Assembly (NCBI RefSeq): GCF_009765275.1
Contig: NZ_VOPH01000002.1
Span: 496,001-560,000, forward strand
DNA: 64,000 bases
Reading direction: 5' to 3'
Source: Chachezhania sediminis
Lineage (GTDB): Bacteria; Pseudomonadota; Alphaproteobacteria; Rhodobacterales; Rhodobacteraceae
Within the stretch, counting starts at the first letter, position 1. Every line of letters begins with the position of its first letter. The position numbers and the translations under genes were made by a program. Of this stretch, positions 10,913 to 20,354 are shown piece by piece. The notes beneath the pieces were generated by a model, which had not been told where the DNA came from, ran no database searches, and saw nothing but the letters and a program-made list of their open reading frames with translations.

Positions 10913-11257
10913 TTACTCGACGATCCGGATCAGCTTCCGCTCCAGCACTCGCAGCACGGTCTTCAACTCGTTCCCGCGCTTCAGGATCTGTCCGTCCATG
11001 GCGACGACTGCATACTGTCCCTGCCGCCCGCGCAGCTTGGGCCGTTTCTCGATCCGGTAAAGCGGATTTTCAGCTGTCCGCCGGAAGACCGAAAACACCG
11101 CCATGTCCGTCAGGCAGGATATCCCGTAGTCCCGCCATTCCCCGGCGGCCACCATGCGACCGTAAAGCGACAGGATGACCGACAATTCGCGCCGGTCGAA
11201 GGCCACCTGGGCAGGAACGGGGCCGGTTTGCAGGGGACTGGGGGGCTGGAATGTCAT
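10913..11257 (-). CDS. DUF2794 domain protein
   Basis: A 114-residue protein of the alphaproteobacterial family DUF2794, of unknown function. The family core is visible as ELSVILSLYGRMVAAGEW (about residues 24-41) followed by DMAVFSVFRR (51-60), and a basic C-terminal half. No signal peptide, membrane segment or catalytic motif is seen. It is 24 bases downstream of paaX on the same strand, so it may be carried on the paaX transcript, but nothing links it functionally to phenylacetate. Confidence 0.85.
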   Translation of the reverse strand: MTFQPPSPLQTGPVPAQVAFDRRELSVILSLYGRMVAAGEWRDYGISCLTDMAVFSVFRRTAENPLYRIEKRPKLRGRQGQYAVVAMDGQILKRGNELKTVLRVLERKLIRIVE

Positions 11258-11281
11258 ACCCTCAGCCTCGCGCCAAAAGGT

Positions 11282-12064
11282 TTACAAATCAAGCCCGCCG
11301 AAGCGTCCCGTCGCGGCCCGCTTGGCGGCGGATGTGGGCCAGTCCGTGCCCAGCCAGCGTTCGGCCGCGGGGCTGAGATGCCGGTAGGTATCGGCCACCG
11401 CCGTGCGCGGATCGCGCAGCGGCGTATCGTCGGGCATCAGCTCGGGCGCCATGTCGGGCCAGCGCAGCACGATCCGCCGCCAGCGGTGGATCAGCAGCAT
11501 CCGTGCCGCCGCGGCCTCCAGCGGATTGGGGGGGACTGCAGCCAGCACCGGCAGATCGGCTGCCAGACCTTCCAGCGCCGCGCGCCGTTCGGCCGTCAGC
11601 AGGGTCGCGCGATAGGCGGGGCTGAGCGCCGCCAGTGTCCCCACGACCCGCAGGTCCGCCGCCTCTCCCTGAAAGCCTTCGGGGTCCAGCCTCAGGTCGG
11701 GGCTGCCATTGCCGTTCAGATAGGCCGACAGGACCCAGCGCTTTACCGGATCCGTCCGCGGCGGGGCATAGATGCGGGACGTGGCGGGCGCGAATTCCCG
11801 CACGCCGTCGGGGGTCAGCCTGTACCGGCTGGTCCGCCCGTCCCGCTCCGAAGTCACCCAGCCGTCGCGGGCCAGCCGCGACAGCGCCGTGCGCAGCGCC
11901 CCCGGTTCCACGCCGACCCGGCCCAGGATTTCCCCCAGCTGGCCGGTCGTGATCTCGCCCCCCCGATGCTGGACCAGGTCGCCGAAGACGGTGATCACCA
12001 GTGACCAGACGCGCAGGCGGCCTTCGGAATGCAGGGCGGTGACAAGGGGCGCTAATGGATCCAT
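11282..12064 (-). CDS. paaX: PaaX-family transcriptional repressor
   Basis: A 260-residue regulator of phenylacetate degradation; family members are repressors released by phenylacetyl-CoA. The N-terminal winged helix (about residues 17-75) includes LVITVFGDLV and the recognition region LRTALSRLARDGWV, followed by the wing RDGRTSRYRLT. The C-terminal ligand-binding part is typical in length. It lies nine bases downstream of paaZ on the same strand, so the two form one unit. A second candidate regulator (TetR type) closes the plus-strand half of the block at 17178-17747. Confidence 0.9.
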   Translation of the reverse strand: MDPLAPLVTALHSEGRLRVWSLVITVFGDLVQHRGGEITTGQLGEILGRVGVEPGALRTALSRLARDGWVTSERDGRTSRYRLTPDGVREFAPATSRIYAPPRTDPVKRWVLSAYLNGNGSPDLRLDPEGFQGEAADLRVVGTLAALSPAYRATLLTAERRAALEGLAADLPVLAAVPPNPLEAAAARMLLIHRWRRIVLRWPDMAPELMPDDTPLRDPRTAVADTYRHLSPAAERWLGTDWPTSAAKRAATGRFGGLDL

Positions 12065-17812: not shown

Positions 17813-18631
17813 TCAGTCTCCCAGCTTGGCGTGAACCTCGTCCAGGTCGATTTCGCCCACGGGCATCTTGTTCGACGGATCTTCGAAGTCGTACTTGAAC
17901 AGGTCGAAATCGCGTTTGTAGATCTCGTACATCATGTGCATCGACAGATCGTCGAAGTAATCCTCGACCGGGTGCGCCCGCTTTGGCCCGTGCCCTTCGC
18001 TTTCGTTGAAGCGCGGGATCTGGTCCAGGTCGACCTTGTGCGGCGTCTCGATCGCGTCCAGCACCGACTGCATGCCGGGATTGAAATCCTCGGTCCAGAA
18101 GATCCTGTCGTAGCGCCCGCCGTTGACAATGAAGGTCGACACGTGGCCCGACATCGCGGACCAGTGGATGTCCGGCTCCATCGGGCGCCGCCAGCGGATG
18201 GTGTCGCGGGCGAACAGAAGGAAGCGCCGGAACGATTCGATCTGGTCGAATTCCTGCTTGCCGTCGTCGCCGCCGACCTCGATCCCGTAGCGATAGATCA
18301 GCGTCGGCACCAGGTTGCCGCGATACCGCTTGCCGTTCCGCTGTATGCCGCAGATCTTGTCGAAGAACGAGGACAGGATCCGCGTGTACGGATTGCGCAC
18401 GCAGGTGAATGCGTAGGTGTTCTGCGCCTGGACGTTCCGTGTGATCAGGTCCTGGCTTTCGGTCACGGACCACTTGTGCATGCCCTCGCGGGCGTCGTGG
18501 ATGTCGCCGTCGAAGAACCGGCCGTGGTCGGAATAGAACATGATCTGTCCGATGGTCGAACATGCGCATTTCGGAACGACCCGATAGACCATGCTTTCGG
18601 ATTCGGTCATCCAGGTTCCGGGAAAACCCAT
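17813..18631 (-). CDS. Sulfotransferase family protein
   Basis: A 272-residue PAPS-dependent sulfotransferase of the Sulfotransfer_2 type. The 5'-phosphosulfate loop is VVPKCACSTI (residues 18-27), and the 3'-phosphate site is CVRNPYTRILSSF (77-89) with the key arginine and serines. Enzymes of this group sulfate carbohydrates. No membrane anchor or signal peptide is seen, so it should act in the cytoplasm. GAGGAGG precedes the start. It is divergent from a GT14 glycosyltransferase gene across 145 bases, which suggests a joint job on a glycan; the acceptor is unknown. Confidence 0.85.
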   Translation of the reverse strand: MGFPGTWMTESESMVYRVVPKCACSTIGQIMFYSDHGRFFDGDIHDAREGMHKWSVTESQDLITRNVQAQNTYAFTCVRNPYTRILSSFFDKICGIQRNGKRYRGNLVPTLIYRYGIEVGGDDGKQEFDQIESFRRFLLFARDTIRWRRPMEPDIHWSAMSGHVSTFIVNGGRYDRIFWTEDFNPGMQSVLDAIETPHKVDLDQIPRFNESEGHGPKRAHPVEDYFDDLSMHMMYEIYKRDFDLFKYDFEDPSNKMPVGEIDLDEVHAKLGD

Positions 18632-18776
18632 AGTACTCTGCCTCCTCGCCCAGTGTTGCCGTATTATGCTTGGGGAGCCGAGGGCCAGTTGAAAACAAAT
18701 TTACCGGCGTTCTTCAATTGCCAATCGCACTTGTCATCGCGTACGGCAGAATAATCGTTGTTTGCCGGGGTCCGTC

Positions 18777-20354
18777 GTGTCGAAAATCGCTTATATCCTT
18801 CTTTGTCACAAGGAACCGGAAGCGATCATCCAGCAGGCGCAGCGGCTGACGGCAGTAGGCGACTACATGTCGATCCATTTCGACGCGCGTGCCAAGCCGG
18901 AACACTATGCCACGATCCGCAAGGCCCTGGACGGCAATCCGAACGTCACATTCGCCCACAAGCGGATCAAGTGCGGCTGGGGCGAATGGTCCCTGGTCCA
19001 AGCCTCGCTCTACGCCATCGAAAGCGCGGTCGAGGCCTTCCCGCGCGCCACCCATTTCTACATGCTGTCGGGCGATTGCATGGCGGTGAAGACCGCCGAA
19101 TACGCCCATGCCTTCCTGGATGGCGACGACTGCGATTACATCGAAAGTTTCGATTTTTTCGAAAGTGACTGGATCAAGACCGGGATGAAAGAAGACCGGC
19201 TGATTTATCGCCACTGGTTCAACGAGCGCACCCAGACATGGCGTTTCTATACCGCGCTGGAGCTGCAGCGCCGCTTCAAGCTGACCCGCGAGGTGCCCAA
19301 GGATATCCAGGTCATGATCGGCTCGCAATGGTGGTGCCTGCGCCGCCGCACCGTCGAATGGATCCTGGATTTCACCCGCAAGCGCCGGGACGTGATGCGC
19401 TTCTTCCGTACCACCTGGATCCCGGACGAGACGTTCTTTCAGACGCTGGTCCGTCACCTTGTGCCAGAGCGCGAGATCCGCACCCGCACGCTGACCTTCC
19501 TGATGTTCTCCGACTACGGGATGCCGGTCACCTTCTACAACGACCACTATGACCTGCTGGTGGGGCAGGATTTCCTGTTCGCGCGCAAGATCAGCCCCGA
19601 GGCGGCAGAACTGCGCGCCCGCCTGGGCCGGCTTTATTCGGCCGAGGACGTGACCTTCCAGGTCTCGAACGAAGGCCGCGATCTTTACCCGTTCCTGACC
19701 GGCCGCGGCCGGATCGGCCGCCGCTTCGGCGCCCGCTTCTGGGAGACGGAAGGATCGCTGGGCCGCGACCGCGAGCTGATGATCGTCATCTGCAAGAAAT
19801 GGCATGTCGCCAAGCGCCTGCTGGAGCGGATCCGCCAGGTCACGAACGTGCCGGCGGTCGAATACCTTTTCAACGAGGAAGCGACGCCGCTGCCGGACCT
19901 GGGCGGCATCCAGACAACGCTGGAAAAGCGCACCCGCCACCGGCGTGCGCTGATGCGGATGCTGTTCGAGTATTTCGAGAACGACCGCATGATCATCTGC
20001 CTCGACCCCGCCAGTTTCGACCTGCTGGAGGATTTCTATGGCGACCGGTCGGTGACGAGGATGCTGGACGTCCAGTGCGATTTCTCGGACGATTACCTGA
20101 TCGGCCATGCCAAGCGCGTGGGCCTGGCGGGCGAACATACGTCGTCCGCGACGCTGGAGCGGATCCTGCCCACCTTGCGGAACGACCTCGCCTACGAGGC
20201 CGACCGCATCCGCGACGGGGATTTCGACCGCTTCAATCGCATTCGTCAGTCCGACAGCGTCGACAAGATGGCGGAACGGATTGCGGATTTCCTGTCGATC
20301 CCGCTGGAATCTGCGCTGGAAATCGCGCGGACCGATCACCTGTTCGCAGAATAG
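18777..20354 (+). CDS. GT14 (core-2/I-branching type) glycosyltransferase with DUF5928-like C-terminal region
   Basis: A 525-residue two-part protein. Residues about 1-275 match the GT14 family of beta-1,6-N-acetylglucosaminyl/xylosyl transferases: IAYILLCHKEPE at the start, SIHFDARAK, KCGWGEWSLVQASLYAIE, HFYMLSGDC, GSQWWCLRR and WIPDETFFQ in family order. Residues about 285-525 form a separate region that I associate with DUF5928, seen in Rhodobacterales. It has a beta-strand/turn/helix ELMIVICKKWHVAKRLLERI (333-352) and ends with a helix KMAERIADFLSIP reminiscent of sulfotransferase C-termini. The GTG at 18777 is preferred over TTG at 18762. It is divergent from a sulfotransferase, so a sulfated surface glycan is a reasonable but unproven product. 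Confidence 0.85.
   Translation: MSKIAYILLCHKEPEAIIQQAQRLTAVGDYMSIHFDARAKPEHYATIRKALDGNPNVTFAHKRIKCGWGEWSLVQASLYAIESAVEAFPRATHFYMLSGDCMAVKTAEYAHAFLDGDDCDYIESFDFFESDWIKTGMKEDRLIYRHWFNERTQTWRFYTALELQRRFKLTREVPKDIQVMIGSQWWCLRRRTVEWILDFTRKRRDVMRFFRTTWIPDETFFQTLVRHLVPEREIRTRTLTFLMFSDYGMPVTFYNDHYDLLVGQDFLFARKISPEAAELRARLGRLYSAEDVTFQVSNEGRDLYPFLTGRGRIGRRFGARFWETEGSLGRDRELMIVICKKWHVAKRLLERIRQVTNVPAVEYLFNEEATPLPDLGGIQTTLEKRTRHRRALMRMLFEYFENDRMIICLDPASFDLLEDFYGDRSVTRMLDVQCDFSDDYLIGHAKRVGLAGEHTSSATLERILPTLRNDLAYEADRIRDGDFDRFNRIRQSDSVDKMAERIADFLSIPLESALEIARTDHLFAE

Follow-up and report, generated by a model that had tools for sequence, protein, structure and literature searches.

A conserved divergent pair of sulfotransferase and GT14-DUF5928 genes in Rhodobacteraceae, with a candidate role in making a sulfated envelope glycan

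The window analyzed here is a stretch of 64,000 nucleotides from Chachezhania sediminis, within which two genes diverge from a short intergenic region. The features of this locus are the following:

17813..18631, (-) strand: sulfotransferase gene, ATG start, 272 aa; PAPS-dependent, Sulfotransfer_2 family, soluble
18632..18776: divergent intergenic region of 145 bp, holding a degenerate copy of a conserved element of ~45 bp
18777..20354, (+) strand: GT14-DUF5928 gene, GTG start, 525 aa, soluble; Pfam Branch and DUF5928 domains
18777..19511, (+) strand: GT14 (GT-A) catalytic domain, aa 1-245, with the invariant WIPDE motif (E218)
19584..20351, (+) strand: DUF5928 domain, aa 270-525, of which aa 318-525 have a predicted P-loop sulfotransferase/kinase-type fold (AlphaFold)

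An earlier note on this DNA had described a sulfotransferase and a GT14 glycosyltransferase diverging from a 145-base region, and we confirm this arrangement at 18632-18776. The longest open frame of the GT14 gene begins with a TTG at 18762 (530 aa) and is the less likely model; the GTG at 18777 is the start common to relatives, yields the protein of 525 aa, and makes the gap to the sulfotransferase gene exactly 145 bp. A search for known RNA families within 17-21.5 kb of the window returned none.

The co-occurrence of the two genes in other genomes, the check proposed in the earlier note, was assessed in a family sample of one genome per genus from 198 genera of Rhodobacteraceae. When all hits are counted, 162 genera have DUF5928 and 164 have a relative of the pair's sulfotransferase. 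With very weak hits dropped, 157 genera carry both genes, 35 carry neither and six carry only one (four the GT14, two the sulfotransferase). The genes are adjacent and divergent in 144 of the 146 genomes with both positions listed; in the two exceptions the genes fall on separate contigs, and a contig end truncates one of the hits. The pair comes close to being a core locus of Rhodobacteraceae. In a class-wide sample DUF5928 was found in 4 of 289 genomes, all four of them Rhodobacteraceae, and in none of the ~285 genomes of other alphaproteobacterial families. The distances between sulfotransferases and those between the corresponding GT14 proteins are correlated (r = 0.83, 109 loci), as expected of co-inheritance.

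Adjacency could also arise without a functional link, if two old housekeeping-like genes had stayed neighbours by chance, and gene order near conserved genes such as polA and smpB is often stable throughout a family, which counts for this explanation. Against it, the flanks change between genera, with at least two neighbourhoods represented (between nth/PfkB and HIT/polA in many genera, beside smpB/sseA/DUF1523 in others, including the window), and the pair stays together whichever genes flank it. The two genes are also jointly present or jointly absent in 192 of the 198 genera, and retention of the adjacent divergent order in 144 of 146 genomes means that the arrangement is not attributable to chance. 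We regard chance adjacency as extremely improbable and as largely refuted; the co-occurrence and the retained order support the earlier note in treating the two genes as a functional unit.

In 26 of 40 genera a HIT-family gene directly follows the GT14 gene on the same strand (at a distance of 11 bp in Paracoccus sp. SMMA_5); in the window no such gene adjoins the pair. HIT enzymes (histidine triad nucleotide-binding) include some that act on adenylylated compounds, and a link of this gene to sulfonucleotides is conceivable.

The gap between the two genes has a median length of 145 bp across 113 related loci, equal to that in the window. Of 108 loci, 84 have a conserved element of ~45 bp in this gap, AAAAAAGCAAAnAAAnCCTGTTTATTCAAT...TTCACC.TTATC, whose place is constant, ~70 bp upstream of the GT14 start. 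The core pattern of this element occurs about once per genome, at the pair's gap, and almost nowhere else in the 17 genomes searched; the copy in the window has diverged (GAAAACAAATTTACCGGCGTTCTTCAATTG). The element is probably a shared bidirectional promoter or a regulatory site (operator). CtrA-type sites and the sigma-70 consensus were also considered for the gap, and neither was found consistently.

The sulfotransferase matches PF03567 (Sulfotransfer_2) at 130.4 bits against a cut-off of 22 (E = 1.7e-37), over profile positions 3-252 of 252, so the earlier assignment to the PAPS type stands. Across 16 genera there is little or no variation in its 5'-phosphosulfate motif, VPKCACST, or in its 3'-phosphate motif, VRNPYTRILSS. 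The full-length family match and the two PAPS-binding motifs liken it to the Sulfotransfer_2 carbohydrate sulfotransferases, from which it differs in being soluble (zero transmembrane segments) and bacterial and in having no near relative in sequence among solved structures. Identity to the window copy has a median of 83.5% over 117 loci, and at the same loci the mean identity to the window copies is 84% for the sulfotransferase, compared with 81% for SmpB and 77% for SseA. An identity of ~84% is unusual for enzymes that act on variable surface sugars, and it suggests that the acceptor of this sulfotransferase may be invariant. Conservation at this level suggests that these genera share a conserved sulfated molecule, which is apparently undescribed.

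In the partner protein, the Branch domain covers aa 4-245 (77.9 bits against a cut-off of 23.4, E = 1.1e-21), in agreement with the GT14 family named in the earlier note, which made no mention of a second domain that occupies half of the protein. This second domain, DUF5928, matches its Pfam profile over the full length (aa 270-525, E = 9e-130) and is a better marker of the GT14-DUF5928 family than the Branch domain. The AlphaFold model of the GT14 resembles mouse core-2 GlcNAc-transferase (2gam; Z = 17.4, rmsd 3.0, 218 residues) and human xylosyltransferase 1 (6eja; Z = 16.0, rmsd 3.6, 243 residues) about equally, whereas the sequence prefers xylosyltransferase, the best PDB sequence match being human xylosyltransferase 1 (E = 2e-5). 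A core-2-like branching enzyme with UDP-GlcNAc or UDP-Xyl as donor, in line with the earlier note, is a candidate reading of this domain. E218 of the WIPDE motif, invariant in 20 genera, aligns with the xylosyltransferase motif PAESFF, and we take it to be the catalytic acidic residue (PDE/PAE motif) of the GT14 domain. The window enzyme thus shares the Branch domain, the GT-A fold and the PDE/PAE acidic residue with the animal GT14 enzymes (core-2 beta-1,6-GlcNAc-transferases and xylosyltransferases), but it is cytosolic, bacterial, without a signal anchor and fused to DUF5928, at 16-20% identity. In one locus (L067:6541-8118) GT14 and DUF5928 appear as separate adjacent frames of 263 and 259 aa, in the same reading frame, so that the fusion is split, and in Paracoccus ferrooxidans (CP038202.1, 636706-639133) an ISPme2 (IS5-like) element interrupts the GT14-DUF5928 gene.

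Modelled alone, DUF5928 reaches a pLDDT of 87.8 in AlphaFold, and its best fold matches are the sulfotransferase domains of olefin synthase (4gox, Z = 11.2) and curacin synthase (4gbm, Z = 10.3), with an rmsd of 3.9 over 185-188 residues. Adenylate kinases follow close behind (Z = 9.9), and because they share one fold class with sulfotransferases, the fold is claimed as P-loop sulfotransferase/kinase-type only; within this class the models favour, but do not prove, the sulfotransferase side. The canonical 5'-PAPS loop is absent from DUF5928, where an invariant KKWH directly follows strand 1, and so is the arginine of the 3'-phosphate motif, with LDP or MDP standing where R(N/D)P would be expected; there is no glycine-rich P-loop. 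Kinship between DUF5928 and the pair's sulfotransferase at the sequence level was rejected (hhalign probability 0.2), which places their relation at the level of the fold only. On the model, DUF5928 is probably a sulfotransferase-fold domain lacking canonical PAPS binding, which would bind or position the acceptor or the partner sulfotransferase. An active nucleotide-dependent domain, kinase-like or sulfotransferase-like, would make the GT14 protein bifunctional, and the P-loop-type fold together with invariant polar residues (KKWH, KR.RHRR, D410 and GHA.R), as in an active site, would suit it. The missing P-loop glycines and 3'-phosphate arginine, the nearly level scores of adenylate kinases and sulfotransferases, and the lack of a sequence match to the pair's sulfotransferase speak against such an activity, which we consider doubtful.

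The genome has one other GT14 gene, a GT14-DUF5927 on the same contig ~300 kb away. It is paralogous to the GT14 of the pair (hhalign probability 100), with homology reaching well into the C-terminal half. We compared the gene content of this second locus in 12 loci from different genomes: CysQ and GalU are present in 12 of 12, PF13704 GT2 enzymes and a two-domain sulfotransferase are each present in 11 of 12, and several loci also have KdsB, GalE and an ABC-2 permease. CysQ and GalU score above the NCBIfam equivalog cut-offs. In nine of the 12 loci the cluster is convergent with ptsN-hpf-lptBAC; the names lpt, hpf, ptsN and kds here are what we take these genes to be from our own reading of the sequences. 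The earlier note had stated that no other glycan genes are nearby, which holds locally and fails for the genome as a whole. Its argument from the missing glycan genes, that a protein or a lipid could serve as acceptor, is unsupported, because glycan genes occur at the distant locus and are present or lost with the pair.

The permease of the second locus has six hydrophobic segments and matches VexB (3.3e-8) and KpsM (3.9e-5), both below the curated cut-offs, so that we name it a capsule-type (VexB/KpsM-like) permease as a candidate only; a partner ATPase was not found within the cluster. The N-terminal half of the second sulfotransferase matches a structure named LPS sulfotransferase NodH (E = 8e-13), and its C-terminal half is of the Sulfotransfer_2 type, with a weak match (1.5e-7) to the pair's own sulfotransferase from a relative. 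With a candidate VexB/KpsM-like permease, glycosyltransferases and GalU, and with kdsB/kdsD/lpt adjoining in most genera, the second locus resembles the KpsMT/VexB-type ABC capsule and LPS clusters. Here, in contrast, the pathway would be split over two loci with two GT14 and two sulfotransferase genes, and no KpsC, KpsS, KpsE or KpsD was recognisable in the second-locus stretches read. The N-terminal domain of the second sulfotransferase likewise recalls the NodH-type enzymes of rhizobial sulfated LPS and Nod factors, but the protein differs in its added Sulfotransfer_2 half and its link to GT14 enzymes. Outside the Rhodobacteraceae, plasmids of Shinella carry GT14-GT2 pairs in the company of a sulfotransferase and of genes for polysaccharide export or rhamnose.

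The two loci are strongly associated, although the counts are uncorrected for descent: 154 of the 198 genera have both GT14s, 29 have neither and 15 have only one. Two GT14 matches were found in 139 of 148 near-complete genomes of the order sample, and the second sulfotransferase is present in 0 of 13 tested genomes without intact GT14s and in nine of nine others. Part of this co-occurrence reflects shared descent, as the family probably inherited both loci from its ancestor. Joint loss is seen even between congeners, and three cases (G256, G242 and G184) carry more weight than the counts. In G256 the sulfotransferase and GT14 of the pair, and the GT14-DUF5927 and GT2 of the second locus, survive as fragments only while galU, galE and cysQ are kept, and its congener G219 has both loci intact; G242 has neither locus and its congener G241 has both. 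In G184 an insertion cuts the pair's sulfotransferase after aa 93 (L061, near 5337) and a GT2 gene of the second locus is split by an insertion with stops (L183, near 11153-11370). A pseudogene status of the GT14-DUF5927 in G184 was rejected, as the reported stop lies only near the natural end; the GT14s of this genome are intact or nearly so, and it is counted only for the damage to its sulfotransferase and GT2. Discordant genomes include G273, which has the second locus and no pair, and G290, in which the pair is intact but a deletion has removed most of the GT14-DUF5927 coding sequence. A minority of the family, comprising G051, G101, G174, G283 and ~25 further genera, lacks both loci fully. 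APS kinase is present in the window genome, so that PAPS can be made; PAPS supply was rejected as a co-varying trait, since APS kinase is nearly universal both among genomes that have the pair and among those that lack it.

Membrane segments are absent from the pathway enzymes of either locus and are found in the permease only. PAPS is made in the cytosol, and together these two points lead us to expect sugar addition and sulfation in the cytosol, before export, while the permease and the lpt/kds neighbours suggest a glycan of the envelope. Taken with the Shinella plasmids, the cytosolic enzymes and this context favour one sulfated, ABC-exported glycan, and a sulfated glycan, as the earlier note proposed, appears to be the best reading of the comparative evidence. 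On balance we find it somewhat likely that both loci make a single cytosolically assembled, ABC-exported, sulfated envelope glycan of Rhodobacteraceae. In this pathway GT14-DUF5928, acting in the cytosol, would attach a sugar, which may form a branch, to a glycan intermediate onto which the divergent sulfotransferase would move sulfate from PAPS, with DUF5928 perhaps holding the acceptor or the sulfotransferase in place. The second locus would contribute the remaining steps through GT14-DUF5927, the two-domain sulfotransferase and the GT2 enzymes; GalU and GalE would provide UDP-sugars, CysQ would remove the PAP product, and the capsule-type ABC-2 permease would export the glycan.

The main rival, which we judge possible and on the whole unlikely, is that the pair is a unit with its own acceptor (a conserved envelope lipid, a peptidoglycan-linked sugar or a protein), independent of the second GT14 locus, with both loci inherited together and dropping out when envelope functions decay. 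The second-locus sulfotransferase is conserved at 41-60% identity and that of the pair at ~84%, so the acceptors of the two enzymes may differ, that of the pair being the more invariant. The ~45-bp element is likewise not common to the two loci, being absent from the second locus in 13 loci scanned, and the discordant G273 and G290 also fit separate roles. What argues for a shared product is the repeated joint absence or decay, even within genera, of loci at least ~300 kb apart, and the persistence of the housekeeping genes galU, galE and cysQ while both loci decay.

Modification of a protein, as in proteoglycans, would have the xylosyltransferase-like GT14 add sugar to a cytosolic protein and the sulfotransferase sulfate the glycoprotein. 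The match to human xylosyltransferase 1 in both sequence and fold, and the lack of membrane segments in the enzymes, are in its favour; yet the core-2 GlcNAc-transferase fold fits at least as well, and the sister GT14 clusters with sugar-nucleotide enzymes and a capsule-type permease. We regard this reading as very unlikely. Returning to the shared envelope glycan, a bolder version would have nearly all Rhodobacteraceae make one conserved glycosaminoglycan-like sulfated envelope glycan by a pathway of two loci that is composed of duplicated modules of GT14 and sulfotransferase fold, the GT14s being fusions with a repurposed sulfotransferase-fold domain, and the glycan would be a family hallmark used at the surface, for instance in attachment or as a receptor for phage or gene transfer agents. 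This version is speculative, and we think it rather improbable.

All of these enzymes fall into established families, and bacterial glycans bearing sulfate have been described; the pair is a real, conserved and uncharacterised variant of sulfated-glycan machinery. In the literature searched we found no papers naming DUF5928, DUF5927, PF19349 or PF19350, and nothing on these genes in work on roseobacter sulfated polysaccharide or LPS sulfotransferases; a study of Phaeobacter motility mutants (PMC12363192) does not mention glycosyltransferases or sulfotransferases. Nor did this literature describe the GT14-DUF5928 architecture, the pairing of the two genes throughout the family, the putative promoter element private to the pair, or the co-loss of two loci. 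The proposed pathway makes a testable prediction, namely sulfate in an envelope glycan that is lost on deletion of either locus. It would give bacterial GT14 enzymes a biological setting and name an activity for two "domains of unknown function".

Rhodobacteraceae, which include the roseobacters, Paracoccus and their relatives, rank with the most abundant bacteria of the sea and are also common in soil and fresh water. A contig labelled as a Rhodopirellula sp. MAG (L118) encodes a GT14-DUF5928 with 73% identity and is most likely a misbinned Rhodobacteraceae contig. Named carriers of the pair include Roseovarius, Sulfitobacter, Ruegeria, Leisingera, Phaeobacter, Shimia and Thalassovita, and Paracoccus carries it on large replicons, some of which are extra replicons in strains that can be cultivated.
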